From Ulva prolifera (Eukaryota > Chlorophyta > Ulvophyceae > Ulvales > Ulvaceae), in the NCBI GenBank assembly GCA_023078555.1, contig CM041197.1, positions 11,505,257 to 11,569,256 on the forward strand: 64,000 nt of DNA, given 5' to 3'. Under the pieces are notes generated by a model that searched no databases, was not told the DNA's origin, and saw only the letters and a program-made list of their open reading frames with translations. Of the stretch, positions 812 through 49,439 are shown piece after piece. Positions within the stretch are counted from its first letter, which is position 1. Each line of letters opens with the position of its first letter. Position numbers and translations under genes: made by a program.

Positions 812-3059
812 ATGGCTGGCGTCAAGCGGAAGTTGTGCATGGTAGCACTCACCGAAGAGAAGCCTGAAGAGGATTGTCGCCAGATGTCGGTCGTGTTCGG
901 GGATCACGTTCGACCAGCCGCAGCTCGTCGGTCTGAGATACTCACACATCACGAAAGCACTGACAGAATTTCAGAGCTTCCGGGTCGTCTCAGTCCGGAC
1001 GAGATTCGGCTCTGGCAGGCTGCGTGCCTGCTTGAATGTGAGCCATCCACCAGCGAGCTCGTGACAATCCTGAAGGTAGCTCCCAACGTCTCTGGCGCAA
1101 CTGTGATCATGTCAGTGCCGGAAACACGTCGGCAAGCCACTGATGCGATTGTATCTTCCGCCACACCGTTAGTCTTCAGAGGCGCAGGCCTTGTGAACTG
1201 GTTGCCACGCACTCCGCAGCCAAGAGATACCAGATTATCGCATGCATCACTGCGTTCGCCAGTGATTTCACAGACAGCTGACCAGTGAGTTTGCGTCGAA
1301 GACAAGTGACCGCATGCAGCTGGGTGCTGCCGTGCTACACTGACGGTGACCATTGGTGCAGGTGGCCGACGTGTTGGGAGATAGCCACATCGCCGCCTGG
1401 GTAGACATGTTCTCAAAGAGGGTCATGCCATCCAGATGGGCAGACGGAGATGCAGCTAAAGCGCTGCAGTGCAGCCTGCTGCAGCTCCCCAGCCACCTCC
1501 TCAGCCGCGTGCTGGCTGCCTGCCTGGCCATGCACAGACTCGATGCCTTGCTGTCAGCCTTCCCAGCCACTCTCCACCCATCCCTCGTCTCCGTCTGCGC
1601 GTCTGCAGGCGCCATCACCCTCCCACACACACTCCCGCACCTGGACACGGTGCTCTCTTGCCTCGCCATCACCTCGTGCCCGCCGCCCGGGCTGCTGTCC
1701 GTGGACCTACCAAGCACGTACTGCGAAGGCATGGAGTCTGACACGCATGCTGCCCTGCTGGCACGCGCCCTCTCCGCTCACCCGTCCCTCACCTCCCTCG
1801 GCCTCCACCAGTTCGTCCTCCCGGTCTCCTACTTCCGCCAGCTCGGCCTCGGCCTCGCGCACACCGCCCTGCCGAACCTTGTCTCGCTGCACTTGTGCAC
1901 CGAAGTCTTCCCAGACGGCTGCGCGGAGCTTGCGCGCTGCCTGAGGCACCTCTCGGCGCTTATCTTCCTGCACGCGGAGCTATACTTCGAGGACCGCCTC
2001 CCTGCCGCCAGCAGCCTCGGGGCATACGTCAGCATCGCCGCGTCACCGGCGCGGCTGGTGAGCCTGAAGGAGCTCGTGGTGGACGAGGGGCACCACATCG
2101 ACCGGAGGAAGCTGCACTCCTCCAGCCGCAGCGTCAGCCACCGGCTGTTTCCCCTTCTAGCCACTCCCAACCTCACGTCCCTCACCTTCTTCTCGGACGT
2201 CGTGCGGGGGTCCACGCCGGCCCTGCTGCAGTCCCTCCGCCACATGACATCGCTTCAGGAGCTCCACATCGATGCCGACATGAAGAGCGAGGATGCCCCG
2301 GCCACCGCGTCCATGCATGCCGGTGGCAGCGGCGGCGAGGGGCTGCTGCCACAGCTGCACACGCTCGCCATCACCAGCGCATGCGCGGTCGCCCCTGTAG
2401 CCATGGCCGCGGCCGTCACCGCCGCGTCCCACGGCGCGCTGACGCGGCTGCACATTGAGCATGAGCACGTATCGGACCGCATTTTAGATGCGGCGGAGCA
2501 TGCGCCCCCGGGATCGGAAGGAGTGCAGAAGGCGTGGGCGGCCCTGCTCCGGAGCCTCAGCCTGTGCGGCAATCTCCGCGACCTGCAGCTCGCGTGCCTG
2601 TGCAACCGTTGCGATGAGGTCATCGACGGCGGCTTCGGGGGGCGCCTGTGCTCCGCGCTCCGGCAGCTGCCGCTGCTGACGCGGCTGCGGCTAGAGGCGG
2701 CGTGCCGACAGTGCGCCCCAGGCGCGCTCTGCCAGCTTCACGGCGAGCCGCTCGGCACAGCACTGTGGGAGATGCCGGACCTGCAGTCCCTCGCCGTCTG
2801 CGGGGCTGCCGAAGCACTCACGGTCACCTGCTCGGAGCGCGTGCTGCATGCTCTGCCGCGGCTGCAACAGCTGACGTCCCTGGCGCTGGGCTTCCCGGGG
2901 CTGCAGCAGTCCCAGATTGCAACTCTGATGAAGCAGTCGCGTGCCGTTAAGGAGTGTGAGGTGTTGGCCGCTGCTCTTGGTGAAAACGCTGAGCAGGTTG
3001 GTGCGTTCAGAGCGCGGTTCCCTGGCGTCACCTTCCGCATCTACGGAGACGCCGGGTGA
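812..3059 (+). CDS. POZ/Skp1-like, F-box-like, LRR family protein, copy A
   Basis: Two exons, 812-1075 and 1362-3059, joined at phase 0 (AAG|GTAGCT ... GTGCAG|GTGGCC), give 653 aa. Residues 1 to about 115 read like a Skp1/BTB (POZ) fold: a beta-strand start (MVALTEE), a stretch ending RRSEIL, a D-E-I-xLW helix, then ILKVADVLGD across the splice junction, like the last helices of Skp1. Residues about 127-158 (LLQLPSHLLSRVL...) resemble an F-box. From about 190 on, irregular leucine-rich repeats run to the end (LTSLTF, LQELHID, LTRLRLE, LQSLAV, LTSLAL). A CxxC...C motif lies near residues 536-545. Same strand and subfamily as copy B. The gene model is well supported by paralogues; domain names and a ubiquitin-ligase role are inference. 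Confidence 0.8.
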
Positions 3060-4828
3060 TGGCAGGCACGGCGACAGTGCAGTTTGTCTTGCACTTTGCC
3101 GCGGTGTTTTGTGTATTATTCCCTGGGCTGCGCGGTGCATGTGTTGATATGTTTCTGTTGCCGATGGTAACCCCAATGTACTGATATACACCCAGTGCTG
3201 ATAGGTGTTTGTGTGCAAGGTGGTGGTGTCCCATTGCTACCCGACTACCATTGTGTAACGTGTCCAGTATGTGATGCAGAAGTAGAGCATACGCCTGGTA
3301 CGATGTTTGCTGTATTGCTGAGTGAGTGCCCATCCTTTTTTCTCCATGGTGTATGGTGGAAGTGGGGCAGGAGCAGGTATTCCAGCGTGCGGACGTGTAG
3401 CGTGCAATGAATTTCCACTACGATCAGACAGGCCTTGATGTTTCAGCCACCTGCCGCCATACACCAGGCCGCAGCCGATCAGTCAGGCCTTGCTGTGATA
3501 GTCCTACGCCTGTCGCGGCACAGATGTAGCTGAGCCGCACGCCATGTTCTTTCCACTCCATAGCAAGGTAGATCTTGGCACCACGGCCCACAGGGCCAAT
3601 TCATCCTGTTCAGTCGTTTCCCAGAGCGGCGGGAATGGCCACGCTGTTGTGGTGCAAGACTCGGCTCTGGAGAACTGGAGCTGGTGTGTCTGACCATGAA
3701 ATATACCCCAGCCCCCTCAGCTTTCCACACTCAAGCATCAAATCCACAGATCTTGGAGGAGACATGCCATGCATGAACTCACAGATATGCAAGGCACCAG
3801 CTGCGGTGCGAAGTGGTAGGAACTGATGACTGCTCAGTTGGAGATGAGCGCATGTGGCGCAGAGTGCGCTGCTCAGGTATGCAGATGCCGTACTTACGAA
3901 CTGTTCCTGACACACGTACAAAAAAAAATATTGCTTTTCGCACACATGCTCAGGCAGCAGTGACGCTATGACCAGGTGATGTTTGACCACATCGACGACA
4001 AAATTAGACTGTTGTAACAACGGATCGTGGCCGAGGGATACTTGGCGGGTCTGTGCTGCCAGCAAGGCACAACAAACTGGGCTACGGAAGCAGCAGCCCT
4101 ACGTGGCTACGGGTGGACAAGAGCTTGACAGCATGCAGCACCGTTCTTAATGCCGCATGTCGGCTCAAACATGAAGCAGCAGCGCACCTCGTAGGAACAA
4201 GATGCTGCCTCGATGGCATGATCTCGCATTGACGCCATCTCGAGTCACATTCGTCTGCGCTTGCAATGTCAGGACTTGAACGGCTTTGAATCTCGGAATC
4301 GAGTCTTGGCTACCATATTGATCACGACCTCCCAGAAACCTTGACGCCATTGTGCGGAACATTTCAGAGTGCTGTCTCTGTGGCTATTTCATCTATGTAA
4401 CCTATGCGGCACAAAAGCCTGTGTCGCAGGACATTTGCTCGCGTTGCCACTGCTCGCGTTGCCACTGCTCGCGTCCTCTGCGGCTGCAAGTGAACAACCT
4501 CCGATCAAGCTCAAGTCTAATTTTTTCAAGCACATCTAAGCTCCGCATCTGCATCTGATCGTTTGGTATCATCGTGGTGCGGTGTTACTCATCCCGTTTT
4601 TGCTGCTCGCTCTTGCACACGGCTGCGTCCATGTTGCTCTCACACAGCTCATTCGCCATCTCAGCCTGGTCCATTGTGCATACAGATCAGCTTGATAAAC
4701 GCAGCCTGCGGAGTTCTTCGTCGCTCGTCCCTTTCATCAAGTTGAGCGCTTAGCCCTTCCAAGCCACCACCTGAGATCTACAGAGATCCAGATACCAACG
4801 TGCATCACTCGGGGCTCCACCGCGAGAC
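3060..4828. other. Intergenic between copies A and B
   Basis: No gene I can support. Open frames on the minus strand at 3610-4065 and 4165-4362 show no known domain, and joining them needs unsupported splices. A 16-bp unit (GCTCGCGTTGCCACT) is repeated in tandem at about 4438-4470. Confidence 0.4.
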
Positions 4829-7576
4829 ATGAACGACCTTGAAAATAGGGTCAGCTTCGTGGCGCTGACGGAAGAGAGCGCTGAGGGCACTTCAGCTGAC
4901 ACAGCGGTGATCATTGGCAACCACGTCCGGCCAGAGGCAGCGGGCAGGTCAGACATGCTGTCAGGCGTCAGCAGCACTCAGGGCCTGGCAGGCCTGCCTG
5001 GCCAGCTGCGGCCTGAAGACGTCCACCTGTGGCAGACAGCGTGCCTCGTGGACTGCGAGCCATCGACGAGCCAGCTCAGCACCATCCTCAAGGTGAGGCA
5101 CCGCATGCGTAGCTTGCTATGCGTCACACGGACAAAGTGGGAGTGGACGGCGCCACCACCACGGCATGCTGTGTGAGGCAGCAGCAACGCACGTCAGACA
5201 CTGCTTCTGCAGATACCGTCTAGATGTTCCTTCCGCATCACCATGAATGCGCTCATGCTCTGCTGTTGGGAGCATGTGGCATTCCAGTGGTTGCTTACTG
5301 GTCGCCATCACACGGGTCATGTCACAGATTCGCCACAAAGCTTCCTGCCTCACCCAAAGCACAACAAGGCGTGCAAGCGTGCACGCCTGGTCATCCGGAC
5401 ATACGATTCTGTAGCGCCGCGGCGCTGCTGACGGCCACGCAGCCTTTTGCTTCCGCAGGCTGATCAGTCACTCGCTCTCTATCTCTGTGACGTGGCGGGG
5501 GCCCACAGGGTCCGCGAGACACGCTGTACTAGGTTGCTGCTGTGGCTGATGCGCGCCATACTCTGCCACAGCCAGCATGCCGTCCTCACCCGAGGTTTCG
5601 TCCACCAAAACCTGTTTACGGCCCCCGTTCCAGGGTCACGGTTCATCCGCATGTGCGCTCCCGTCGTGTGGGCACGCGCGCAGCATCCAAAGGTGTCAGC
5701 AGTGCTGACTCACCACCCACCATCGAGGTTCGCACGTGCGTGATGGAGTGCCACAGCAACGGCCCAGTCCCGCACCGACCCGAATCCCACAGCCTTCAAG
5801 CACCACGCCACACCACACCCTTCCGCCGTGCAGGTAGCAGATCTGCTTGGAGACCGCCACATCAGCGACTGGGTCAGCCTCCTCGCGCGCCGCGCCTCCG
5901 CGACCATGTGGGCCCGGCCCCTGCCCGAGACAAAGGACATGCTCCGAGGCCTCCTGTGCCTCCCCCCCCACCTCCTCCACCGCGTCCTCTCCTCCTGCCT
6001 CGCCGACACAGACCTCGGCAAGCTCCTTTCCATCTTCCCCGCCGCGCTCCACCCCGCGCTCGTATCCAGCGCCGCCTCCACCAGCGCGATCGCCATCCCC
6101 TCCGAACAGAAACTCTGGGAAATCGTGCTGCCGCAGCTTGCCGTCACGCCCGCACCCCCTCCCGGCCTCCTCTCCCTTTCCCTCGGGCGAACGAGTACGT
6201 ACCCGCGCGACTTTGACGCCGAAACTTCCGGTGCCCTCCTCGCGCATGCCCTCTCCGCCCACCCGTCCCTCACCACCCTGGACCTCCGCGCGCTCATGCT
6301 TTCGCCCGCGTTCCTGCGGCACCTCGCCCGCGGCCTCGTGCCGGGCGCGCTGCCGTCCGTCGGCGCGCTCCACCTCTGCACGCAGGTCCACCCTGACGGC
6401 TGCGCCGAACTCGGCGGCACCCTGAAGCACCTGCCTGCGCTCGCGTGCATGCATGTGGACTTCTATTTCAACACGCCGCCGGCCGGGGCCGCGGCGGGCG
6501 ACCTCGCGAGGTACGTGCACGCCGGCGCGACGCCTGCGCGGCTGCCGCAGCTGGCCGACGTAACGGTCAAGGAGCTGTGTCATTATGAGCAACGGGCGCT
6601 GCAGCCGGAAAGCAGCAGCTCGGCGCTCCGCCTCTTCTCTCTCGTTGCGGCTCCTAACCTCACGTCCCTGACGTTTGAGTCCCACGCAACCACTGGCACG
6701 CCGGCGCGGCTACGAGCGTCTCTCCGCCACCTGTCCTCGCTTCAAGAGCTCTCCATCAACACGGACATGCATGAGTGCGGCGAGGCAGCGGGGGCATCGT
6801 GGACGGGGCCGGCGGCCGCCGACGCCGACGTCACTCTGCCGGCGCTCCGCAAGCTGCACATTGCGAGCGCGTGCCTTGTAGCCCCTGTAGCCATGGCCGC
6901 TGCGTTTGCAGCGTGCGCGCCCGCCACGCTAACATACATGTGCCTGAGGCACGTCAGCGTGGCGGGGCGGACGTTCACCGGCCGGTGTGCCGCGAACAAC
7001 GCGCACCGGCGGGAACTCCGGGGCACGAACGGGGAGGGCGTCAAGGCCGCATGGGAGCAGCTCATCCCGGCGCTGGGCGCCTGTAGCCACCTTCAGGAAC
7101 TCGAGCTCGGCCCACTGTGTAGCTCGTACAAAGAAGTCGATAACGAGGGCTTCGACGAGCGTCTCGCGGCCTCCCTCCGCGGCCTGCGCCTCCTCACGCG
7201 CCTGCGCCTACACGCTCCATGCAGGACGTGCGCCCCCGACGCGTTTTGCCAGCTGTCGGGCGAGGCGCTGGCACGCGCGCTCCGGGGGATGCCGGCCCTC
7301 GCCGAGCTGGACATCACCGGCGCCGCGGGGGCTCTGACGGTGAGTGGCCGCGAGAGCACCCTGGCGGCGTTGCCGGAGCTGCAGCGGCTGACCGCGCTAA
7401 CGTTGTGCATCGGGGGCCTGCCGACTGCGGCGGTCGCGGAGCTGATTCCGCAGGTGAGCGGTCTGAAGGAGCTTCTCGTGTTTACGCCTGTGCTCGGATG
7501 GGGCAGTGAGGCTGTTGCGGCGTTTCAGGCCCGGTTCCCGGGCGTTAACGTCCGCCAGAGTGCTGTGCCGGAGTGA
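4829..7576 (+). CDS. POZ/Skp1-like, F-box-like, LRR family protein, copy B
   Basis: Exons 4829-5092 and 5834-7576 join at phase 0 (AAG|GTGAGG ... GTGCAG|GTAGCA) to give 668 aa. Exon 1 is again exactly 88 codons, as in copy A, and carries the POZ-like region (FVALTEES, GRSDML, RPEDVHLWQ, STILK). The junction reads ILKVADLLGDRHISDW. An F-box-like stretch (LCLPPHLLHRVLSSCL) follows, then LRR-like strands (LTTLDLR, LTSLTFE, LQELSIN, LQELELG, LTRLRLH, LAELDI, LTALTL). The Cys motif is CRTCAPDAFC. It is closest to copy A by its shared HPDGCAEL-type segment. The 741-bp intron has no recognisable content. No stop or frameshift interrupts either exon. Confidence 0.8.
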
Positions 7577-9090
7577 TGGCCCCGGGCGAGAGCTGTGTCG
7601 TTCGTTTGCCATCACACAGGGGCCACATGCAAGCGGTCAGATAGCGCCGCAGGTGCCGCGTTCGGTGTGTAAGAGTCGGAAGTAAAGAGCTGTCAGGTCT
7701 TGATGGAGGACCTGTTGCTTCTGTGGGTTTACATCCCCAATCCAGTGGGGCTGCATTGGGCCTTCTGCAGTAGCAGCGCTGCCTCGGAACCCGCCATGGC
7801 ATACCGGTATTTACGGTCATTTTACCTGAATTTACGAATTTCGGCCGTTCGCAGGATTCCACCGCACCTTGCTGTACGTTTGGGCAGCATTGTCTAGCTC
7901 CACGTCCCACGGCGACACGACCTGCTTTGTTCCAGACTAGTCTGCAGTTCCAGACTAGTCTCCATGGAACTCTCACAGAGCTCTGTGAGTGCATGCCAGT
8001 GTAAAAAACGAAAAAGTGCAAAACGGGAAACGACAGAAGTTTTCCTATACCGGAAGTTCATGTGCATCCGGGTGTGACATAATCATCGCTGACTCGCTGC
8101 AAGTTCCTGTGTAGCTCAGCAGCTGATGGTGACATGTATGAAGAATGCACCTGAAGCCACGGCGCGTACCATTGAACTTGGAACGAAGCTCCGAAGCCTG
8201 CTGTGTTACAAGGACAAAGGCAGCAAGTCGGGCAGCACCGCGAAAGGAGCAAGCAGACGAAGCAAACACCAAGACACCCACGAACATCTCACCCATCACC
8301 GGCGCAGCAAGCGACACAGATCCGCAGACCGCCAAGCACACACCCACACACCAGCACACACACGCACAGACCCACACACCCACAAACCCAAACCCCCACA
8401 CGCGCACGCACAAACCCCACGGCCGACACACAACATCACAACCACCAGCACCACAACGCCCGCCGCCGTACGACAGGGCCAAACCCAACACACTGCTGCC
8501 TGAGGCCGCCCATCATGGCCGCCCGATTGCCGGGGGCCGCCCTGGCCCCAAGACCCACCCCCACCCCACCAAGCCACAGCATACCACGCCAGCCCGGCAC
8601 ACCGCCGCGCAGCCCCGCCGGCCCACGCCGCACCGCACCTAGGGCACTGCATCGCCCAAGCCGTTCCGCAGTCCCCGCACATGCCAACGAAGGCATCCCG
8701 CACACCCATCGGACCCGGCCCAGCTGGAGTCAGAGGCCACAGGTCGGTGGCGTCAAGCGGACGGGGCGCCCAAGGGGCACCCCACCGCTCAGGCCGGATG
8801 GCCTGTAAGCGGCGAGAGGTCATCAGACGGGACTGTGAGCCTGCTGTGTCTCGCAAAACCGAAGCCTGCTGTGTCTCGCAAAACCACGCAGCGGCAGTCG
8901 CTAGAGCTCCGTGGAGTTCCTCGCAGTCAGGGCATTACCAGCGACCGTGTCCATCCGGCTGCGCACCGTCTCCAAATGTGATGCTCGTACTGAGTCCGAC
9001 TCGCATGCTGCAGCACGTCAGCCTGCATGCCACCGTAGCGCTCTCCTCGCTCTCCCTGTGGATCTGCAAAGCTGCTGCCCAGTCCTCCCC
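7577..9090. other. Intergenic with C/A-biased low-complexity tract
   Basis: Contains an 18-bp perfect palindrome at 7972-7989 and a short tandem duplication at about 7930-7965. From about 8220 to 8660 the + strand is very rich in C and A (cacaca/cccaca) and poor in G and T. A 24-bp unit is duplicated at about 8838-8886 (GCCTGCTGTGTCTCGC). The long open frames across the C/A tract are compositional and not credible genes. Confidence 0.5.
8220..8660. repeat. C/A-rich strand-asymmetric low-complexity region
   Basis: Degenerate CACA/CCCA runs dominate the + strand. All three forward frames are open only because stop codons are rare in such composition. The flank (ACAAGGACAAAGGCAGCAAG near 8208) partly resembles the reverse complement of the flank of the TG microsatellite near 17525. 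Confidence 0.6.
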
Positions 9091-9448
9091 ATGGCGTCCT
9101 TCAGTGCATCGTTTCGAAACTTTTTGAACCATCCTGCGGGTCCGAAAACAATTTTCTTCTGGGCTCCGACGTTCAAATGGGGAATCATGACGGAAAATCC
9201 TTTTCCGCTGCAGCCTCGCCAACCTGTCGGACCTCTCGCGCGATCCGGACCACATCTCGACGCCGATGCAGTGTGCTGTCACTGTAACGGGCATCATATG
9301 GTCAAAGTACGCGCTGGACATCACTCCGAAGGTGTATAACCTGCTGGCGGTCAATGCCTTCATGGCATGTACCGGCATGGTTCAGCTGTACCGGAAGTAC
9401 GACCACGAGCAGCAGAGGAAGCTCAAGGCCTCCGAAATATCAAGTTGA
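9091..9448 (+). CDS. MPC2: Mitochondrial pyruvate carrier subunit (MPC2-like)
   Basis: The inner-membrane MPC heterodimer imports pyruvate into mitochondria. Start at ATG 9091. The segment KTIFFWAPTFKWGI is the family's first-helix signature. The remainder (LANLSDLSRDPDHIS, VTVTGIIWSKYALDITP, YNLLAVNAFMACTGMVQLY) matches the rest of MPC2. These two parts are in different frames, separated by 25 nt at about 9187-9213. Removing 25 nt restores a 110-aa protein of normal family length. No GT donor is present, so this is either a very short non-canonical intron, a true frameshift or an assembly error. Without removal the protein stops after 82 aa. Family identity is secure; expression and the exact junction are not. 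Confidence 0.75.
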
Positions 9449-10495: not shown

Positions 10496-12230
10496 TCAGC
10501 GCCGTGCACAATTATGGGTCCGGACCTCCATTTCCTCTCGCACATCGTCATCGGCCCCCTGCTCACGCTCGCCGAGCATTGCAGGCGTCACCTGCAGCAC
10601 CTTCACCGCCGGCAGTCTCTCCACGGGCCGCACCACCTGCTGCCACCGGAACCCCTTACTAAGGGGTTGCAGTGGCTGCAGCCACATGTGCCGTAGTACG
10701 GCAGAGCCCCAGCCAGTGCAGCCAGTGCAGCTGCCGCAGTTCCGCCACCGCCGCCGCACCCCGCTCCGCCTCCCCCACCTCCAGCGCGCCCCACTCGCCC
10801 CCCCCCCCCCCCCCCCCCATGGGGGTGTGTGCTCACACCTCTAGCACCTGCCAGTGCAGCGCCGTCGGCCATCGCAGCGCGTCCCCGAGCTCCGCACCCC
10901 CCAGCCGGATGCCGCCCGTGCTGTCACGCTGCGCACCCACAGCATGCATGCACAACTGCATCAGCTGCGTCAGGCGCCCCGACGTGGCGGCGAGGCCCTC
11001 GCTCAAGGAGCCCTCGCCACACCTGCCTGCCGCATACACTAGTTGGCCCAGCTTGAGGCGCCGCAGCTCAGTACACGAGCTCAGAGCCCCAAAGAACGCA
11101 GCCCAGCTGGCCCTGTCGCCCTTCTGCGCCACGCCTGCAGCTGTAGCCGGCAGCGTGCCACCTCTGCACACGTGCTCGAGAGACAGGCTTCTCAGGGTCC
11201 GAGGCGCATGGTGTGCGGCGCATGTTGTGCGGCCGCGGTGGCGGCGCATGGTGTGCGGCGGCGTAAGCGCTGGAGATGTGAAGCCTGGTCAGTGCCGGCA
11301 GAGCGCATGCCAGGCTGCAGCCCGCAGCCGGGCCCGCGTTGCCAGCGGGCGGAGGCTGCTGGTGGCCTGCAGCGATGTGAAGGGCTTGGAGGGCGCTGAG
11401 GTGGCGCAGAGGCATCAGCAATGCGTATACATATATGTATACGTATACATAGGTGCCGACTGTAGCACCCGTCGACAGATGAAGGCCTGAGAGGCCCGGT
11501 GCATCGATAAGAGGTAGAAGGAGGTCGCAGCTGCAGCAGCTGCAGCAGCTGCGGCTTCAAGTTGTCGGCTTCGTGTGCACATCTCCGAGGTAGAGGCGGC
11601 GCAGGCGCTTCACCATGGCTGGTACTGCATCTGCACTGTACAAGGGCGCAAGACTCCTTCTCGCCGCCACCTGTTTCTGCCCTTTGTATATATATGAAAA
11701 GCAGACGCGGAGTCTGATTTCTGACCACAGGCCTAGGGCGAGGAGGCAGCACGTCAGTTCTGCGCAACAGTTGGGATGTGCTTCCACAGAGACAGCAAAC
11801 GTGACGACTCGCGCAAGGGCAGAATGGCTGAGGCTGGCGCGAAACTGTAGCAGAGCTGCGGGGGTGAAGACGGTCGTACTGAGATCGAGGGATGAGAGAT
11901 GGCACTGGCTCGCCAATGCGTGCGTGAGAGGCGCGGGGGTTCCGGGTGTGAACTTTGCCGCCTCTGCGAGCTTGAGCGAGCGGAGGCCCAAAACCCTTGG
12001 AACTGCAGTCTGGGGGAAGGCTGAGAGCAGGGCATCGAGGGTGGCACCGCCCGCTGTGAGGGTGCAGGTGGCATGGTCAAAGGCTGCGGAGAGGATGTGG
12101 GGGTGCAGGGCGGATCCTCGAGGGGCAGGCCTGGAGGAGGGTGTCCACGGTGGCGGTGGCGAGGCAGGAGGCGAAGACCCGGTGGAGCGTTTCGGGGCGG
12201 AGGGTGGCGCCGTTTGTGTTGGATGTTAAA
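10496..12230 (-). pseudogene. Decayed POZ-LRR family copy C
   Basis: Homologous to exon 2 of copies D, E and F but split over at least three frames. Pieces are about 12220-12110 (LRPETLHRV), 11991-11557 (SLKLAEAAKF, LDLSTTVFTPAALLQF), 11421-10833 (MPLRHLSALQALHI, LEHVC) and 10759-10496 (GFRWQQVV, AVKVLQVTPAMLGERE up to the normal stop region). The 5' part of exon 2 and all of exon 1 are missing. A run of 21 C at 10798-10818 and an AT-alternating stretch at about 11424-11452 interrupt sequence that is continuous in paralogues. Several independent frame breaks argue for a pseudogene over a single sequencing error. Confidence 0.8.
10798..10818. repeat. C21 homopolymer
   Basis: Run of 21 C inside pseudogene copy C. 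Length may be inexact in the assembly. Confidence 0.8.
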
Positions 12231-12566
12231 ATAAATAATTAGTGGCGAGCCGCCAGCACTTGCAGTGACAAAAAGTTGTACGGAAGTGCAATGACCGTCG
12301 CGCACAGACATCGCACCGGCTGTTTGCGCCCCCAGCTGCGACATAATATTCCCGAGACGCTACAATTGCGTGCACCATCGCGTGATGTGCGACTGCAGAT
12401 GTGCTGGTGACTCCCGCATGCACACACACCCGCCATGCACGCACTGCGCGCGCAGGCCCACACCAGGTCTCCCACAGTGTCATGTAGCGCCTTTACAGAA
12501 ACACACAACCCTGTTGTGTGCAGCACATCAACGTCAGCTCCCAAAACCAATCCTCATGTTTACAGT

Positions 12567-14772
12567 TCACATGAGGGGCTTCGCTTCAGCAGAACACGCA
12601 TGGCATCGGACCTCCACGCCGGCGCGAAGGCCTTTATCGCCCTCGTCACGCTCGCCGATCGTTTCAGGCGTCACCTCCAGGACCTTCAGCGCCGGCAGCC
12701 CCGCTACGAGGCGCTGTACCTCACACCACTGGAAGTCCCAAAAGCAGAGCCCCAGCGATCGCAGCTGTCGCAGGTCCGCCACCGCCGCCAACACGCGCTC
12801 TGGCGCCTTCATTGGCAACGAGCCGGTGCAGGCGGCGCCACCGCACACCTCCAGCACCTGCAGGGCCGTCAGCCGCCGCAGCGCATCCGCAAGCGCCGCA
12901 CCCTCCAGCACGCAGGAACACGTAGACCTGGCTTCACAGCCCGTGCACGGAGGGCGCATGCGCAGGTGCGTCAGCGGTGTGAGGTGCGCCAGGGTGGCTG
13001 TGAGTCCGTCGCTCCAGGTGACCTGGCCGCTCAGGACCGAAACGCTGGTTAACTGTCCCAGGTTCAGGCTCTGCAGCGCAGTGCATGATCGTAGAGCCTC
13101 AAAGAACGCGGCAAAAGCTGCCGCCTCGTCTCTCCTGGCTGCCGCTGCAGCCCGCGTCTGAGTTTTGCACACGTGCTCCAGGGACAGGCTTCTGAGGGTC
13201 CCCCGTGCGTGAGGTATCGCCGCTGTGGCGGCGCACAGAGGCACAGTGGCGTACACGCTGGAGAGGCGCAACCCTGTCAGCGCCGGCAGGGCGCCGCCTG
13301 GGGCACCTGCGGGCGCAGGCGGCCAAAGATCTGCATCAATGTGGAGGTCCTGGATGGTGCTGAGGTGGGGCATCGGCTTCAGCAGGGCATCGTAGGAACC
13401 CGCTGTCGCTGCAGATGACACTTTCAGGCTTGAGAGAGTCGGCGCCTCCAGCAGGGGCAGGAACAGGTCGCAAAAGCTGCTGCTTTTTGGCTGCACCCCC
13501 CCCTCGCCAAGGGTGAGGTGGCGCAATTGCATCAGAACTGCCGGCGCCGCGGCTGCCCGGACAAACGGCGCAAGCTCTCCCCCGGCGGCCGCTGGCTGCT
13601 GCTCGGTGGAACAGAAGTGCACGGTGAGTGTGGCCACAGCCGGCAGGGACGCGAGGCAGCGTGCAAGCTCCACGCAGCTCTCTGGTTGCGCGTCCACACA
13701 GACGGCGAACTGGGAGACTGTGGCAAGCGCGCCATGGCCCAGCCCAGTGCGGAACTGCCGCAGAGCTGCGGCAGTGATGACACTCGGACTGAGGATGAGA
13801 GTTGTCAGGCCGCGGTGGCTTGATACTGCGTGCGCGAGAAGCGCGGGGGTGCAATGAGAGAACTCTGCCGGCCTCCTCGACAATCTGAAATAGCGCAGAG
13901 CAATTCCCGCAGGAAATTGGGTGTGGGGGAGAGCTGCGAGCAGGGCATCGAGGGTGTTGTTGCCTGCAACGATGATGCCGGAGGCACCGGCTGCTGAGAG
14001 GATGTGTGGGTGGAGGACCGGGTGGCACGCCTGGAGGAGGGTGTCGAGGGTGGCATTTGTGAGGCAGGATGTGAACACCCTGTGGAGCAGTTCCGGGCGG
14101 AGGGGGAGGAGGGCTCCAAGCGTCTGTGCGCGACGCGCGGGGGTGGCCCTGGAGGTGGCTAGGGTGCGCCTTGCGAGCATGTCAATCCAGGACGGCAGTC
14201 CGGTGTCGGCGAGCGCGTCCGCGACCTGCACGCGGGGCGGGCGGAGCGTGAGGGATGCGCTGGGGCCCGTTTTAAACTTTGTGGTGCGGATCATAGCATG
14301 GTCGCAGGAGGGGGGAGGGAGGGGCTGTTAGGGGCATGCAGGAGCGCACCGGTGGTGCTTCTGGGCAAACTCAAAGAGCATGTCAGGAAAAGACGTTTCA
14401 GACTGAGGGGGCCCATATGCCATATAGTGTGTGCAAGGCCGGATTTGCTGAGTCAGCAAAGTACATACGGATAGGAGCCTGTGAATTGAAGTGATGCCAC
14501 ACCTTCAGTACAATGCCCAGCTCTTGCGTGGATGGCTCGCGGTGGAGCAGGCAAGCGGCCTGCCACAGCTGCACGTCGTCCGGCGACACCTGCTCCGTCA
14601 GCTGCGCAGCGCTGGCGCCACGGCTCCCTGCAGCTGCCGCCCCGCTCAGCAGTTCCGATCTATCCACTGCCCCCCTTCTAAACCTTTGCTTGAAAATCAG
14701 TGAATTTCTGCGCGAATCCTCGTCCGCTGGCTCGCCTGTCAGGGCCTCGAATTGTCGCTTTGTAGCGCCCAT
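12567..14772 (-). CDS. POZ/Skp1-like, F-box-like, LRR family protein, copy D
   Basis: Exon 1 14772-14503 and exon 2 14225-12567, joined at phase 0 (AAG|GTGTGG ... GTGCAG|GTCGCG), give 642 aa. The start follows copy E (MGATKR against MGASKR); an ATG two codons upstream (14778) is equally possible. Exon 1 keeps the POZ-like pattern (VDRSELLSGA, SPDDVQLWQAACLL, ELGIVLK). Exon 2 has the F-box-like LLPLRPELLHRVFTSCL and LRR-like strands (LTTLIL, LSSLKV, LQSLNLGQL, LTHLRM, LQVLEV, LRSLGL). The Cys motif CTGCEARSTC is present. The sequence is closer to C, E and F than to A or B. The intron is 277 bp. Intact, and probably expressed if the family is functional. Confidence 0.8.
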
Positions 14773-15750
14773 GGCCATTACGTTCCACGAGAATCGCCGG
14801 GTGAACGCACAGAGCTGGATCAATCGCCGTCAATATCGGACCTCTGTAACCTTCAGTGATGTATATCTCTTGGAACTTGCTTTGAGGAGGGGAAGCCTGC
14901 TGTGGATACGATGCGGGACGGATATCTGGCGTGGACACTATCTCGGAGATACGGATAATATAGACCGTTCACTCTTTTGTAAACAAGGATAATATAGACC
15001 GAAGGTTCACAGCAGCGCGGCGCCGGCTAGCCTGGACGAAGTTTACCAGCACACATTACATGACCATGTAAACAGCATTGAAGCGCTTTGGAGGGCACAG
15101 GTCGCCTGCAAACGTGCCCATATGCATGAAACGATCCAACGATCCCGAACTTTGAAAGCGGTGTGCCGACGATATCTCAAGAGAAATCTGAGTGTGCACG
15201 TGTGCACAAGCTGTTGCGCGAGAGCGTCGCGTGCTGCACGGTCACCATCAATCCTACCAACACCATCATGATATGATAGTGAACATGGGTGTTAACAATT
15301 GATCGTACCGATCGTTGTTGCCGCGCCCGGCAACAACGACCCCTACGTCGCTCCACTAGTACTTGTCAAATGGAAGCAAAGTACTTGTCAAATGCAAACA
15401 ACATGTTAATTCTAGCCAAGGAGATTCACAGAAGCTCCTGTCTAAGCTGCCATTCTTGCCTTCATGCAGAGCATCCTACCTAGACATGTGGAATTACTGA
15501 AACATGCATATGTAGCCACTTCATCTCATCACCTCTGGCGGCTGTCTAGCATCAAAACAGTCAGGGCACACGGTGACAAAGGAACATGCACCCCCGGAAG
15601 AACGCACCGAGATGCCAGCACCGCGGAACCCTACATGCTGAGGTACCTGCGGCTCGCTGCAGTCTTGCAGATGCGCTACTACCAGTACTACGCGTGCCAC
15701 ACCGCAGATCTATGTATCGATGCAGGCCTGCCTGGGCTTCCTGTTGGGCA

Positions 15751-15837
15751 GTAAAGTAAAGTAAAGTAAATCTAAATTTACTGAGCCGTATCCTATTGGA
15801 CATTGACAACTCCGAGTTAACGGGACCACATATGCCG
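15751..15837 (-). mobile_element. SINE-like repeat, copy 1 (3' part)
   Basis: Starts with GTAAAGTAAAGTAAA and runs through the conserved core (TATCCTATTGGACATTGACA, ACGGGACCACATATGCCG). It matches the 3' half of the family seen at six other places in the window. Only the core and tail are present, as expected of a 5'-truncated copy. Confidence 0.75.
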
Positions 15838-16149
15838 TCGTCGCTGCGTGTGATCGCGGCCTCGTCCACTTTGTGGTAGTGGCGGCCCTGGCGCGCCGCG
15901 TTTTGTCGCTGTCTTTGCCGTGTTTGTGTGTGGTCCGCCATCGGGGCGCGGCCGGGGCGTTTGGGCAGGCTGGGCTGGACTTAGGGGGTTGAGGGTCTGG
16001 GTTTGCGGGTGCGCGGGGTGTTGTGCGGGGGCTGGGCGGGGTGGGTTCTGTTGGGGGAGGCAAGGGCCTCCTAGGGGTGGGGGTTGTTGTTGGGGTCGTC
16101 GTTTTTTGGCTTTGCAGCCTCGGCTGCGTGTGCTTTCGGGGCTCTTCAA

Positions 16150-16179
16150 GTTGCGCCTGGCTGGCCAGCCAGGCGCAAC
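16150..16179. repeat. Perfect 30-bp palindrome
   Basis: All 15 base pairs around the axis 16164/16165 (CTGG|CCAG centre) are complementary. It could extrude as a cruciform or fold as an RNA hairpin. Confidence 0.9.
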
Positions 16180-16220
16180 ACTCTCACTCCCACCCCCACA
16201 CTCACACTCCCACCCACTCA

Positions 16221-16296
16221 ACACTCACACTCCCACCCCCACTCTCACCCCGCCCACCGGTGGGCGGGGTGAGAGTGGGGGTGGGCGTGTGGGTGT
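16221..16296. repeat. Near-perfect palindrome with 54-bp perfect core
   Basis: The axis is at 16258/16259 (CACC|GGTG). Positions 16232-16285 are perfectly self-complementary and pairing continues outward with few mismatches to about 16221-16296. The left arm is CACTC/CACCC-rich and the right arm is its complement. Confidence 0.9.
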
Positions 16297-16715
16297 GCTT
16301 GTGGGTGTTTGTAGGATGGGGGGCTTGTTTGTTTACAAAGGACAGAGGCCGGGCATCATGCCGTGTCTAGGAATCCACTCGCAAACACCCACTCCCTCTT
16401 TCATGGTATGAGGCCAGGCACGCGCGAGTAGCACAGCCCTGCCGGTGATGCCAGCCAAATACTGAAGTCCTGCACGGAGCACAATAGCATTCCCTTTGCA
16501 CAACGCCACACTCAACCGGCGCAGAGCATTCGTCACAAACAAACCACGGTTCACAACACCACACCGAGATGTTACCTCGCCAGCCAATTCAAGTGATCCA
16601 TAGCAGGCTGTCCCAAGCGACCGTGCGTCTCATGTGACAACGGCACAAAGCTATATGCGTCAGGGTCGTACAAACGATAAGCATTGCGTTTCTGCACGTC
16701 TCGCGTCACCACAGC

Positions 16716-17343
<628 letters not shown>

Positions 17344-17470
17344 CGCTGTGTGGCTGTGTGGCTGTGGCCGGTGCGGGTGCTGGCGTTGCGTAGGTGTGCT
17401 GGTGTGTGCTGCGTGTGGCTGGTTGCGTGGTGGGCGGTTCCTCTGGTTAACTGATTCCTCTGGTGAAGAG

Positions 17471-17522
17471 AGCAAGCAAGGCAGGTAGCACCGCCAGCAA
17501 CAACGTGCCTGCCTTGCTTGCT
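17471..17522. repeat. 15-bp inverted repeat (hairpin)
   Basis: Arms AGCAAGCAAGGCAGG (17471-17485) and its exact complement (17508-17522) around a 22-nt loop, just 3' of the TG array. Confidence 0.85.
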
Positions 17523-17673
17523 TTGTCCTTGTACCACTGGCAGGTCATGAGCCAAGATGGCATCTCGTGAATACATACATATGCATAGACTATTTCCACA
17601 CTGTTTACACCCCATCAACTGCAAGAAACTTCACCGCCAAACAAGCCATCGAGTCCGTAGCTCGCACCAGTGT

Positions 17674-20353
17674 CTACGCCTCCGCATCACACGCATGCAT
17701 CCGGATCTCCACGTCCGGCCGCGCGTCTAGGCGCCCCTGATCGCGCTCGTCGATCATCGCAGGGGTCACCTTAAGCACCTTCAGCGCGGGCATCCCCTCC
17801 ACGAGCCGCACCACCTGCTGCCACCGGAAGCCCTTACAGCACAGCCCCAGCGTCTGCAGCTGCCGCAGTTTCGCCACAGCAGACAGCACGCCCCCCGGCG
17901 CCCCCACCTCCAGCGCGCCCCCGCCACCCCCATCGCGCAACTCCAGCACCTGCAGGGCCGTCAGCCGCCGCAGCGCGTCCCCGAGCGCCACACCACCCAG
18001 CACGCAGCACAGCCTCGATTCACACCACGCACAAGAAGCATGCATGCGCAGCTGCTTCAGTTGCGTGAGGTGCGCCACTGCAGCTGCAAGGCCCTCGCTC
18101 CAGGTGCACTCGCCACAGCTGCCAGGGACACTGGCCAACTGCCCCAGCGTGAGGCTCTGCAGCGCTGTGCAAGAGCGCAGCGCCGCAAAGAACGCAGTCC
18201 ATGCGGCCGTCTCCGCTTTCACCTCCACCGCTGCAGGCCGCCGTGCGTCGCTCTTGCAAACGTGCTCAATGGACAGGCTTCTGAGGGTCCCCTGTGCATG
18301 CTGGGCGGCCGCCACGGCAGCACACAGCGGCGCGGTCACGCACGCGCTTGAGAGGCGCAGCCCGGTCAGCGCCGATAGCGCGCCGCCCAAGGCAGCCGAG
18401 GCGCGTGAGGGTACAGGGTTCCAGAGGTCCGCATCGATGTGGAGATCTCGGATGGCGCTGAGGTGGCGCAGCGGCATCAGCAGCGCGTCGTAAGTGCCAG
18501 CGGCAACTCCAGATGACAGCTGCAGGGTTGAGAGGGTCGGCGCGTGGAGTAGCGGTAGGAACAGGCCGCAGCAGCTGTGGCTGTCGGGTTGCATGTGCAC
18601 TTCATCGACGGCGAGGAGGCGCAGTTGCGTCAGAACCGCCGGCGCCGCGGCTGCCCGGACAAACGGCGCAAGCTCCCCTCTGGCGGCCGCCGGCTGCTGT
18701 CTCGCGAAAGAGAAGAACACGTGAAGTTTGGCCACAGCCGGCAGGGCGGCGAGGCAGCGTGCGAGCTCCACGCAGCTTTCGGGTTGGGCGTCCACAGACA
18801 CGGCAAACGATGAGACGCTGGAAAGCGTGCAGTGGCCGAGGCCGGAGCGGAACAGCCGCAGAGCTGCGGGGGCGAGGACGGTGGAGCTGAGGACAAGGGA
18901 TGTGAGGCCACGGTGGCTTGACAGCGCGTGCGCGAGAAGCGCAGGGGTGATGGGCGTGCATTTTGCCGGTTCTGCCGGAAATCTGAATGTGAGCAGGCCC
19001 TCTCCCGCAGGAAGCTGGGCATGGGGTAGAGCTGAGAGCAGGGCGTCGAGCGTGTCAATGCCTGCGACGAGGATGGAGGAGGCACAGGCTGCTGAGAGGA
19101 TGTGGGGGTGGAGGATCGGGGGGCAAGCCTGGAGGAGGGTGTCGAGGGTGGCGGAGGCGAGGCAGGAGGAGAAGACCCGGCGGAGCAGCTCGGGGCGGAG
19201 CGGGAGGAGGGCTCCAAGCGTCTCGGCGGCGTGCGCAGGGGTGGCCCAGGAGGTGGCTAAGGTGCGCCTGGCGAGCATGTCGATCCAGGACGGCATTCCG
19301 GTGTCTGCAAGCGCGTCCGCGACCTGCACACGCCGGGGGGAGCGTGAGGGGTGCTCTGAAGTGTAAGTCCCACCAGTGGGGAATGCGGCGTGGCCATGGG
19401 ATGGGGATCTAGGGGACAGGGTCACGGCAAGGCATGCACATGCGCACCAAACCAAATTTGGTGACGCCTTCGTACCATGGATGCCATGAATACGCTATGG
19501 AGCGGTGGAAACTGGCGGTGTTGCCAGGCGAACACAAGGAGCCTGTCGGTGTACACCTGTCGGCCGGGGGGGGGGGGGGGGGGGGGGGGGACAAATGCGA
19601 GCTTCCGTGCACCGACTTCGTTGAAATTGTGGTCGTCATGCCGGTCAGGCTGATTTTGTGCTCTATCAAGCAGTGGCCTGAGGTCGTTGGAAGTAAAGTA
19701 CTCTTGCACCGAATGATGCACCGTGGTCAGCTGCTGGAACAATGCACCCACGCAGACACACGTGCAGTATCGGTCAGTTTCATCAGCATACATTGGTTCA
19801 CACCATCATGCAATGGGCAAGTCAGCAAAATGCATTCGGATGTGGGCGTGCAAGGCGTGTGCCCTGCAACTGACTTTAGCCGGCTAGCACAGAGCATCAA
19901 CGCAGCGCGCAGGTACGTAGCCTGATACGTAGCCTGGTACGTAGCCGCCTCCGTACGAATTACGTCTCTCGCTGTCGAACTCTTGCAGATGGGTGCGGTG
20001 TTATGTAGGACACGGACTGCAATTCCGAGTGCATGTGACGCTGGCGCGAGCACACGAATTTGACACAACACGAAGCGGTTCGATGCATGCCGCACCTTCA
20101 GAACAGTCCCCAGCTCTTCCGTGGATGGCTCGCGGTGAAGCAGGCAAGCGGCCTGCCACAGCTGCACGTCGTCAGGCGAGAGCTGCTCCGAGAGCTGCTC
20201 GGCGCCATGGGTCCCCTTTGCCCCGTTCAGCAGTTGCGACCTGTTGACTGCCTCATTTCTAAAGCTTTGTTCGAACATCACAGTGTGTCTGTGCGAGTCC
20301 TCGTCCGCTGCCTCCTCTGTTAGGGCGACGAATGGTCGCTTTGAAGCGCCCAT
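17674..20353 (-). CDS. POZ/Skp1-like, F-box-like, LRR family protein, copy E
   Basis: Exon 1 20353-20096 and exon 2 19323-17674 join at phase 0 (AAG|GTGCGG ... GTGCAG|GTCGCG) into 635 aa. Exon 1 starts MGASKRPFVALTEEAADED and ends ELGTVLK, with the POZ-like NRSQLL and SPDDVQLWQ motifs. Exon 2 begins VADALADTGMPSWIDML. Then comes the F-box-like LLPLRPELLRRVFSSCL and LRR-like units (LTSLVLSS, LSTLQLSS, LQSLTLGQL, LKQLRM, LQVLEL, LQTLGL). The Cys motif is CAWCESRLCC. The 772-bp intron contains a run of 25 G. It is very close to copies D and F at the protein level, suggesting recent duplication. Confidence 0.8.
19566..19590. repeat. G25 homopolymer
   Basis: Run of 25 G inside the intron of copy E. 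Confidence 0.85.
19912..19950. repeat. Short tandem repeat (GTACGTAGCCTG-like, about 3 units)
   Basis: Three near-identical 11-13 bp units (TACGTAGCCTG) in the intron of copy E. Confidence 0.7.
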
Positions 20354-22054
20354 ACTCTAGATCTGGCACGAGAATCGTTGGATGAACGCACAGGGCTAGC
20401 AATCGCCGTAAATTTCGGGTATCTGTACAGGATTTGACCAATTCGAATGTGTTTGCAGGAGAGCAAGCCCGCTATGAGTACGAGTTACCTGGCGTCGACA
20501 CTCCAGACAGTCTACGGATATCTGACACCGAACAGCCACTAAACCGCGATTACATTGAATACAGTTACCCGTCTCAAGTTGCATGACGATCTGGCGTGCA
20601 TTGGTGCGCTTTGCAGGGGCACATGTCGCTGACCTGAGCAAACGTAGCACACGTGCTCATGCGCAGATCCAGCCGATCCCGAGCGCGTATCTCATCTGTA
20701 CACTATGTGCTAACTGAGACAGAAAGTTCACTGGTTGATGCTGTATTACATGAACATCACGGAGCGGCATAACATGTTTCGGCCTTGCCAAAGGGCCTCG
20801 TCAGACGCCTGCACCAGCTCCGCACTATGGCCACGTGGATGTGCTGTGCCTGCTGTGCCTGCTGGGCCTGCTGGGCCTGCTGTGCCTGCTTCCACTGCGG
20901 CGGTGTTGCTGCTTTTGTCCCCGTACGTTGCCCCAGCACCGCCATCACAACCTACGGGAACAGAAGCAGCAACACCACCGCAGTGGACGCAGGCACAGCA
21001 GGCCCAGCAGGCCCAGCAGGCCCAGCAGGCACAGCAGGCACAGCAACACCACCGCAGTGCGCATGCGCCTTCCTCACCTCCACCGCCATCACCCCCGCAG
21101 CCCTCTGGCCGCTCCGCCCTGGTTCTGCGATGGCGCTCCTCTGACCAACCCGGTCGGGTCAGCTTCGCTGTCTTTGTGCACATGCATGGACGGCGTTCCA
21201 ACCTTACGTGTGCGGGCATACATCCTGAAGCAGCCCTCTTTATGCCGATCGCTGTCCCGCCAGTGTTGTTTTTTTTGGCATATGGCAAAATCCGACGGCG
21301 AGAGAAGCGAGCGTCGGATTTCCACACACCAATCCGAGGGGTCTGGCCCATACAATTCCTTCGCAATTCCGCTAGATCTACTTTCGCAAAATCTAGAAAG
21401 CGAGCTATCGGAAATCCCGACAAAGGAAAAATCAACTGTAGCGGGATTGGGTCCCCACTGCCTCTCTGCAGCAGTGTTGGGTCATCGGGCCCAATCACAT
21501 AGAACAATTCCGAATATTCAGATCTAATTTCGGGGCGGCAGTCCTGGAAATGCTGCAAAGAGACCCAACACTGCTCTGCAGTCCCATCTGCAGCCCCCCC
21601 TGAAGGTCTACATCGCTGTCAGTGAGCCAAAACCATCGGCATCCAGAGGGCCGGGTACGCCAGAGTTCTGCGCTGTGTCTGCGCCGCATTGACGCCGATG
21701 CCGCTGAAGCAGCTACACGCACTCGTGTCAGACGATCTCCCACGCAGCTGGAGGCACCGGCGGCGTGGTACTACGCTGGCTGTGGAGGGTGCATGCGCCG
21801 CACTGCATGCCTGACAGAACCTGACGATGGGAGAGCTGTCGCTGCAAACAGGATGGTGTGAGATTTGTTTTGCGGAGGTACCGGTTGCATTATGCATGCA
21901 AAGAAATGAGCATGGCAAACTGTCGTCAGAGGCCTACACCATCAGGGCATGAGCCAGGACGACGTCTCTGAGGTTCATACACTTGTACTCCCAATTGTTA
22001 CATCCTATCGATTGCACGGCACTCGAGCACCCGATTCATTTTCGTGTGCACAGC
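20354..22054. other. Intergenic with large inverted repeat
   Basis: No gene supported. Contains the long inverted repeat at 20838-21046 and a 10-bp-arm hairpin at about 21293-21322 (AAATCCGACG ... CGTCGGATTT). The open frames rich in Ala-Gln-Gln or Gly-Pro-Ala are by-products of the GCCTGCTGT/CAGCAGGCC repeat and occur on both strands. Confidence 0.5.
20838..21046. repeat. Imperfect inverted repeat with about 90-bp arms
   Basis: The left arm, about 20838-20935, is built of GCCTGCTGTGCCTGCTGGGC units, then CCACTGCGGCGGTGTTGCTG. The right arm, about 20953-21046, is its near-complement (CAGCAACACCACCGCAGTGG, then CAGCAGGCC/CAGCAGGCA units). The loop is about 20 bp. It could be a foldback or MITE-like element, or an inverted duplication of a minisatellite. 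Confidence 0.8.
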
Positions 22055-24346
22055 TCATGAAAAATTCTTGGCGCCAGCGCCGCACGCATGCACGCGGACC
22101 TCCAGGTCCGCGTGCACGGCATCGGTCCCCTGCTCGCGCTCCCCAAGCATTGCAGAAGTCACCTCCAGCACCTTCAGCGCCGGCAAGCCCGCTGTGAGGC
22201 CCACCACCTGCTGCCACCGGAAGCCCTTGCAGCACAGCCCCAGCGTCTGCAGCTGCCGCAGCTCTGACACCGCAGACAGCACACCCTCCGGCTCCTGCAC
22301 CTCGGCAGCCCCCCCGCCAACCCCGCCCCCACACACCTCTAGCACCTGCAGAGCCGTCAGCCGGCGCAGCGCGTCCCCGAGCGCCACCCCGCCCAGCACG
22401 CAGCACAGCATCGGTTCACACCGCGCACACGCAGCATGCATGCGCAGCTGCGTCAGCTGCGTGAGGTGCGCCACCGCGGCGGCGAGGCTCTCGCTCCAGG
22501 TGCCCTCACCACACCTTCCTGGAACGCTGACCAGCTGCCCCAGCACCAGGCTCTGCAGCCCAGTGCAATCGCGCAGCGCCGCAAACAACGCAGCCCACGT
22601 GGCCGCGGCGTCCTCGGCGGCTACCGCTGCCGGCCGCCGCGTGTCGCTCTTGCACACGTGCTCAAGGGCTAGGCTTCTGAGGGTTCCGCTTGCGTGCGGT
22701 ATCGCCGCCGTGGCCGCGGACAGCAGCGCAGCACCGCACACGCTGGAGAGGTGCAGCCCGGTGAGCGACGGCAGGGCGCTGTTCAATTCAGGGGCTGCCG
22801 CGGCGCTCGAGGGTGCGGGCTGCCGGACGTCCGCATCGATGTGGAGGTCTTGGATGGCGCTGAGGCGGCGCAGCGGCATCAGCAGCGCGTCGTAAGAGCT
22901 GAGGGTGGCTCCGGATGACACATGCAGGGTTGAGAGGGCCGGCGCGTCGAGCAGCGGCAGGAACTGGCTGCAGCAGCCGTGGCTGCTCGGCGGCATGCGC
23001 ACTTCGGTGAGGTCGAGGAGGCGCAGGTGCTGCAGAACCGTCGGCACCGCGGACACTGCACGGACGGACGGCGCGAGGCCCCCTCCGGCCACCGCCGGCT
23101 GCTGCCCCGTGAACGCAAAGTACACGTGCACTGTCTCCACGGCCGGGAGGGCGGTGAGACAGCGCGCGAGCTCCGTGCAGCTGCCTGGTTGCGCGTCCAA
23201 CGAGACTGCGAACTGGGAGACCTCCGGAAGTGTGCCGCCGCAGCCGAAGCTCGCGTGGAACAGCCGCAGAGCTGCAGGGGAGAGGACGGTTGAGCTGAGG
23301 ATGAGGGATGTGAGGCCGCGGTGGCTCGAAAGTGCGTGCGCGAGAAGCGCCGGGGTGCAGGGCGTGAGCTGCACCGCCTCCGCCGGGAAGCTGAATGCAC
23401 GCAGGCCATCTGGCGCGGGGGACTGGGTGTGGGGGAGAGCGGAGAGCAGCGTGTCTACGGTGTCAACACCCGCGACGAGGGTGCCAGAGGCACTGGCTGC
23501 AGAGAGGATGTGGGGGTGGAGGACTGGAGGGCAAGCCCGGAGAAGCATGTCGAGGGTGGCAGTGGCGAGGCAAGAGGAGAAGACTCTGCGGTGTAGCTCG
23601 GGCCGGAGGGGCAGGAGGGCTCCTAGCATCTCTGCGGCGCGCACGGGGTTGGCCCAGGCGGTGGCTAAGGTGCGCCCAGCGAGTATGTCGATCAAGGAGG
23701 ACACATCATTCTCAGCGCGCGCGTCTGCGGCCTGCATGCGGCGGCGGGGTGTGGCAGAATTCACAGGTGCAGTGAATTCAGAGTGGTGCGGTTCATATGC
23801 ACAACCCGGACATGTGCGCTTAAAACTGGGTGCTTGGTGTGCGCGGCAGGGATGTGCGCCGGAGACTTCTGTGGTCGCTTCGAGTACTCGCAGTAGATGC
23901 AGTTGACGTTGGCTGTTCAGTGTGTATGTGCTTCATGTCGATGGAGATGCCCGCAAGCCGGAAACGCAGAGTACAGATGAAGCGCAAGGGGACAAACGGA
24001 GCATATGGTGTGCAGACCACTACCCCATGGACGAGCCAATGCACGCAGCATGAGTACTCTAGCTAAGTAGTGCGGGTCATGGCCGTACCTGCGCCACCGG
24101 CCCCTGTTCTTCCGCGGAGGGCTCACAGTGAAGCGGACCCGCGGCCTGCGGCGGTGGCTGCCCCTCGTCGGGCGCGACACCGTCGTTTGAGTGCGCTGCC
24201 GCCGCGCCGGGGCTGCCTGCCGCGGCCGACTGCATGCCCGACGCGTCGCCTGCTTCATACGGAAAGCCCGCCTCAGAACTCAAGCAGTGGCCGTGCGAGT
24301 CTTCGGCCGCCGGCTCGTCGGGCGGGGGGACACATGGCCTCTGCAT
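22055..24346 (-). CDS. POZ-LRR family protein, copy F, with diverged first exon
   Basis: Exon 2 (23731-22055) is intact. After GCATGCAG it begins with a start like paralogues (AADARAENDVSSLIDIL), then F-box-like LLPLRPELHRRVFSSCL and LRR-like units (LTSLILSS, LSTLHVSS, LQSLVLGQL, LTQLRM, LQVLEV, LQTLGL). The Cys motif is CARCEPMLCC. A matching first exon, 24346-24089, keeps the 86-codon length and a GT donor (CAG|GTACGG). However, it has many Leu-to-Pro and Trp-loss changes (for example VAPDEGQPPPQAAGPL against SPDDVQLWQAACLL), so the POZ-like fold is probably lost. It may be a functional LRR-only copy or an early pseudogene. Confidence 0.65.
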
Positions 24347-24440
24347 GCACCTCAAGCATATCTACCTCGGTAGCTCAGCAGCAGTTGGGTGTATATGTTG
24401 GTGCTGTACTATACAATGCTGCGCGTGGCAATCGAGTGAC

Positions 24441-49419: not shown

Positions 49420-49439
49420 GGTCCTGCAGTGGCGCCTCC

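Follow-up and report, generated by a model that had tools for sequence, protein, structure and literature searches.

The first 24.4 kb of a 64,000-nucleotide stretch of the Ulva prolifera genome (contig CM041197.1, here C2:11505257-11569256, referred to as the window) hold six copies of one gene family, and the question they raise is what kind of protein results when a short, conserved N-terminal module is spliced to a long leucine-rich repeat (LRR) body. The initial annotation of the window had proposed that a Skp1/BTB-like region, an F-box-like region and LRRs are fused here in a single chain. As judged from the sequences, the family is a large, clustered and duplicating one of about a hundred loci, which encode two-exon LRR proteins. 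The LRR body is well supported by structural modelling and is of a kind already known, and for the N-terminal module we tentatively favor, by analogy, a BTB-like role in a cullin adaptor.

W1 and W2 lie on the + strand and W3-W6 on the - strand. Four copies are intact (W1, W2, W4 and W5). In each, an intron of 277-772 nt separates a short open exon 1, coding for 86-90 amino acids (aa), from a long open exon 2, and the exons lie at the positions that had been assigned to them. In W1 (653 aa when joined), exon 1 (812..1075, +; 88 aa) carries the conserved N-terminal module, with a putative BTB/Skp1-like order of elements by eye, and exon 2 (1362..3059, +, including the stop) encodes a helical N-terminal part followed by the LRR body. 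W2 (668 aa) has its exon 1 at 4829..5092 (+; 88 aa) and its exon 2 at 5834..7576 (+; 580 aa, including the stop), and carries LCLPPHLLHRVLSSCL. On the opposite strand, W4 (642 aa, 90 + 552) consists of exon 1 at 14503..14772 (-; 90 aa) and exon 2 at 12567..14225 (-), and W5 (635 aa) of exon 1 at 20096..20353 (-; 86 aa) and exon 2 at 17674..19323 (-). The earlier reading of 0.8-24.4 kb as a run of copies thus holds for these four; the copy at 10.5-12.3 kb, W3 (10546..12238, -), is broken into exon-2 pieces in several frames. In W6, which reaches to 24.3 kb, exon 2 (22055..23731, -) is indeed open, with GCC rather than GTN as its first codon, but exon 1 is a degraded remnant without an ATG (24080..24361, -), recognized through a weak alignment (hmmsearch E 3.1e-6). 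At 51.6-55.7 kb the window contains a seventh member, a distant one. Its exon 1 (55494..55736, -; 81 aa), whose two ends and connection to exon 2 are predicted, resembles exon 1 of the copies on contig C9, and its exon 2 (51609..53933, -; start likewise predicted) reads as LRRs but shows no recognizable VAD...F-box-like stretch.

The exons meet in phase 0 at ...LK|VAD, in agreement with the junction read earlier as ILK|VADLLGD. From 42 exon-2 frames we modelled 35 genes, omitting seven frames (the two without an exon-1 match, in L020 and L035; W6; and one each in L013, L015, L023 and L024). The donor is GT in 34 of the modelled genes and GC in 1, and the acceptor is CAG in 34 and AAG in 1, every one ending in AG. 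All 35 modelled introns shift the frame or contain a stop, and a single chain therefore requires splicing. An exon-1 match (profile E below 0.3) lies no more than 4 kb upstream of 40 of the 42 frames, a set fetched through exon-2 matches and so not blind; the fairer test is genome-wide. Across the Ulva genome searched here (88.9 Mb, 44 contigs), each of the 29 exon-1 matches of a C9-type joined query has an exon-2 match no more than 700 bp downstream. When the 88 aa of W1 exon 1 serve as the sole query, 32 places reach E≤1e-3, and for 30 of these a match from the W2 exon-2 search lies downstream on that strand, at most 1.6 kb away. With this pairing, the constant phase and the near-constant splice sites, the proposal of one gene family, encoding a single chain if spliced, is borne out. 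The ratio of nonsynonymous to synonymous substitution rates (dN/dS), over 13 pairs of which some share a member and with synonymous divergence near saturation in two exon-1 comparisons, runs from 0.14 to 0.51 for exon 1 and from 0.34 to 0.59 for exon 2, the exon-1 value being the lower in 12 of the 13; intron similarity falls below that of both exons in all 13. Because dN/dS is below 1 and the introns diverge more than the exons, exon 1 acts as a conserved coding unit. A search of the same genome with the joined protein for an intronless copy yielded none fully covering both exons among the best 62 of 245 candidates.

Matches in this genome number 54 for W2 exon 2, 87 for the joined C9-type protein, 23 for the joined distant member and 38 for W1 exon 1 (run to E 1, with 32 of the 38 reaching 1e-3), all of these counts being lower bounds. 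When matches up to 800, 1500 or 2000 bases apart are merged, they amount to 124, 104 or 95 loci, respectively, numbers that include fragments and broken copies, and the loci concentrate on C9 (43-47), C2 (28-49) and C5 (15-17). The large clustered expansion that had been claimed is thereby upheld, at about 95-124 loci. The third cluster, with exon-1-like and LRR matches at C5:9003379-9107613, is kin to the gene at 51.6-55.7 kb of the window. Among eukaryote genomes, the family searches covered the alga's own, whose RuBisCO small-subunit exons, located on large contigs, point to the green lineage. A giant-virus or prokaryote origin was rejected, as no relative appeared in viral contigs (alignment A1) or in prokaryote genomes (172 N-terminal residues of the C9-type protein, searched as short exact peptide patterns). 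Foldseek comparison with viral models did return giant-virus LRR and F-box proteins at low template modelling scores (TM-scores), which we take, from the models, to reflect a shared LRR fold.

The C-terminal body is the firmest part of the protein. The AlphaFold model of W2 exon 2, with a predicted local distance difference test score (pLDDT) of 87.8 and a predicted template modelling score (pTM) of 0.88, shows five helices (residues 10-81) and then LRRs, and both model and alignment contain LxxLxL strands alternating with helices. About 14 irregular repeats can be counted from these strands in the W2 body (6086..7573, +); Pfam LRR_14 matches below its cut-off only. The LRR region described in the initial annotation is thus confirmed by the modelled fold and by the LRR proteins among its Foldseek matches. 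The best of these is NLRC4 (PDB 4kxf; E 1.6e-11), a likeness to the NLR proteins (nucleotide-binding, LRR-containing) that is confined to the LRR model, since Pfam lists no NB-ARC or NACHT domain in the family proteins scanned; of 14 N-termini, one matched nSTAND_NTPase7 (E 0.18), which is taken as chance. Many other LRR proteins were matched, including the F-box-LRR proteins COI1, TIR1, D3 and FBXL2. The inner face of the LRRs is the most variable part of the protein (23 rows), with a mean entropy of 2.69 bits, whereas the polar helix positions average 2.15 and the N-terminal 84 residues 1.72. Its proportion of nonsynonymous differences (pN, 8 pairs) is 0.278, a value that 11 of 1000 label shuffles attain.

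What such a protein might do depends on the module in front. Read by eye, exon 1 and the start of exon 2 run strand, strand, helix (SxxL), LP strand, helix (conserved W) and helix pair (VAD.L....W), which matches the order of elements in a BTB/Skp1 domain. We consider it possible, with a probability of roughly 40% and by analogy, that the family proteins are BTB-like/LRR cullin adaptors that recognize targets for ubiquitination. In this mechanism, the module (exon 1 plus some 25 residues of exon 2) would be a very diverged BTB/Skp1-type adaptor, and the helices that follow it would occupy the place of the BACK/3-box or of the F-box helices. The variable inner face of the LRRs would bind targets. 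The protein would attach to a cullin, a CUL3-like one or, should the module play the part of Skp1, a CUL1-like one, and would bring bound proteins to ubiquitination, with many copies providing many target specificities. Outside the family loci, cullin exons occur at three loci of the genome, and Skp1_POZ matches once. In support of the module, hhalign places the BTB helix-1 segment above 60 of 60 column shuffles with the all-copy and C9-type profiles. With a second BTB control set (BTBY), the all-copy profile again exceeds 40 of 40 shuffles, at a probability of 0.8%; the C9 profile is narrowly above its shuffles with another segment aligned, and global mode gives no usable BTB alignment. In that second round, a further control (BTBX) had outlier shuffles with scores above 120, and only the BTBY and F-box controls were usable.

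Several results weigh against this reading. Pfam at E≤10 (where most matches weaker than about 0.1 are filtered out) finds neither BTB nor Skp1 in 4 joined proteins or 14 joined N-termini, and the sole F-box signal is F-box-like_2 in one of the 14 (E 0.12). A fifth protein, which wrongly joined exon 1 of L028 to exon 2 of L027, had no match and is left out of the count. A PDB profile search (14 rows) returned no BTB, Skp1 or F-box chain, its best match being a designed helical repeat protein (E 0.0045). Against BTB, F-box and Skp1 sets, hhalign gives non-significant probabilities with each of three profiles, all-copy, C9-type and C2-type (the last holding the window genes): 1.6%, 2.9% and 0.1% for BTB, and 4.0%, 0.3% and 7.3% for the F-box. 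Among the shuffles, 21 of 60 and 3 of 40 score as high for BTB as the C2-type profile does, and the best BTB scores drop when the BTB set is widened. For the fold of a C9 copy, Foldseek returned no match at E≤0.001, a test weakened by an inserted intron, and positive selection, sought at the LRR inner face, was not detected there, because dN/dS is 0.52. The same hhalign comparison gave Skp1 under 0.5% with each profile and above shuffles with none, and genome-wide Pfam BTB matches (4 places) and the Skp1_POZ match (1, on C3) fall at no family locus among the best candidates scored. The Skp1/BTB identity claimed for exon 1 is therefore not established by Pfam, PDB profile or hhalign, and the F-box identity claimed for the segment behind it fares no better, all three methods staying below significance. 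As the profile comparisons for each domain fall short, filing the family under BTB, Skp1 or F-box is unwarranted today. The C9-copy fold adds little (alignment A5, 22 rows; a 39-residue in-frame intron included). Its pLDDT is 61.4, with residues 1-41 nearly all below 50, and a structural comparison covering mainly residues 95-233, with no BTB/Skp1 among the 50 matches listed, proves nothing; because of the inserted intron, this fold is a weak test in both directions.

The suggested role in choosing ubiquitination targets comes from analogy with LRR cullin-ligase adaptors and with two bacterial expansions, PEX1 and NEX1a. The PEX1 family of Protochlamydia couples an N-terminal BTB to C-terminal LRRs and shows a large paralogous expansion with tandem copies under purifying selection, while NEX1 of Neochlamydia comprises 138 members and consists mostly of NEX1a, an F-box-LRR subfamily with an F-box described as highly conserved (PMC4209131). 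These Parachlamydiaceae BTB-LRR and F-box-LRR expansions are the nearest precedents that we saw in print (PMC4209131). The Ulva family is like PEX1 in having an N-terminal module coupled to LRRs, a large expansion with tandem copies and purifying selection, but PEX1 is bacterial with a detectable BTB, whereas the Ulva genes are eukaryotic and intron-bearing with a non-significant BTB, and the two are likened by description only (PMC4209131). The conserved F-box of NEX1a is non-significant here, and a module of the exon-1 type is not described for NEX1a in the available part of that paper (PMC4209131). To COI1, TIR1 and D3 (PDB 3ogl, 2p1q and 6brp), the likeness lies in the LRR body (Foldseek E 2.0e-9 to 8.4e-9); over the whole model, however, TM-scores are about 0.3 and the root-mean-square deviation is 15-17 Å, and the Ulva family has no F-box recognizable by sequence and has an extra conserved exon-1 module. 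In the literature, no paper was found on a BTB-LRR architecture by that name, and broader searches of titles and abstract starts recognized nothing as this family. Within that survey, the combination of LRRs with a conserved, unnamed, intron-split N-terminal module at about a hundred loci was unrecognized. With a first exon unnamed by the profiles tried and the inner face most variable, these loci would be a candidate green-lineage recognition repertoire, for which the BTB/Skp1 nature of the N-terminus is a clear yes/no question.

If the answer is no, the proteins may instead be of an LRR receptor type, with an N-terminal domain of undescribed fold, acting as sensors or scaffolds and not via cullins. 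We regard this as possible, if somewhat improbable: the N-terminus has no significant match to any named domain, and the expansion, the broken copies and the variable inner face resemble those of recognition families, but to the eye the order of elements and the LP and VAD motifs suit BTB/Skp1, and some profiles place short segments above their shuffles.

The segment that precedes the LRRs suggests another arrangement, in which the family would be diverged F-box-LRR proteins whose LP-headed helices bind a separate Skp1, exon 1 being an added extension unrelated to Skp1. In W2, this putative F-box spans residues 40-81 of exon 2 (5951..6076, +) at the expected place, with helices at 45-58, 61-67 and 70-81 before the LRRs in a model whose structural comparison barely covers the part before residue 57. 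The LP segment directly precedes the LRRs, an arrangement like that of the F-box-LRR proteins COI1 and TIR1 among the Foldseek matches, and the genome has its Skp1_POZ match. The F-box helix-1 segment exceeds 60 of 60 column shuffles with the all-copy and C2-type profiles, and the LP..LL.RVL segment of the C2 type exceeds 60 of 60 and 40 of 40 shuffles as well as four LRR control slices. However, these alignments cover 11-12 columns at probabilities under 8%, the C9-type profile gives no signal, and of the genome-wide Pfam matches to F-box-like (10 places) and F-box (11), none falls at a family locus among the best candidates scored. A mere extension would also have no need of the lower dN/dS seen in exon 1. 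We consider this arrangement unlikely.

Slightly less likely still in our estimate is the proposal of the initial annotation, a Skp1-like, F-box-like and LRR unit in one chain whose cullin binding would need no separate Skp1. Both candidate segments do occur in order within one spliced chain, but neither half is established, the Skp1 set never rising above shuffles, and the Skp1-like half would also need C-terminal helices that grip the F-box, of which none was identified. That such single-chain ubiquitin-ligase receptors, reading targets with variable LRRs at about a hundred loci, form a recognition repertoire in a green alga is by the same token distinctly improbable. It is very improbable indeed that exons 1 and 2 are separate genes or that the intron is retained: in 3 of 12 C9 junctions fetched to find open introns (L052, L053 and L055), the introns are 3n long and stop-free, which lets the frame run unbroken from exon 1 into exon 2, but every one of the 35 modelled introns breaks the frame, phase and splice sites are nearly constant, and introns are less alike than exons in each pair. 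An elongin-binding LRR adaptor with a BC-box was rejected, the BC-box consensus occurring in the first 180 residues of 9 of 35 members at scattered places.

Several other features accompany the family in the window. Between W4 and W5, at 16700-17400, roughly 0.6 kb are taken up by a long (TG)n/(AC)n tract. A similar peptide of the YVVPLIRSCQCPIGYGSVN type recurs in three frames (15710-16183, -; 49271-49882, +; 54056-54547, -), and this recurrence suggests a dispersed repeat. A possible bZIP region is found at 60278-60859 (+; E 0.0072, below the Pfam cut-off). Clearer Pfam matches are those of a Peptidase M20 family frame at 39971-40816 (-; E 6.1e-7) and of two frames at 29656-32561 (-) with Kinesin motor domain matches (E 8.9e-19 and 1.8e-14).

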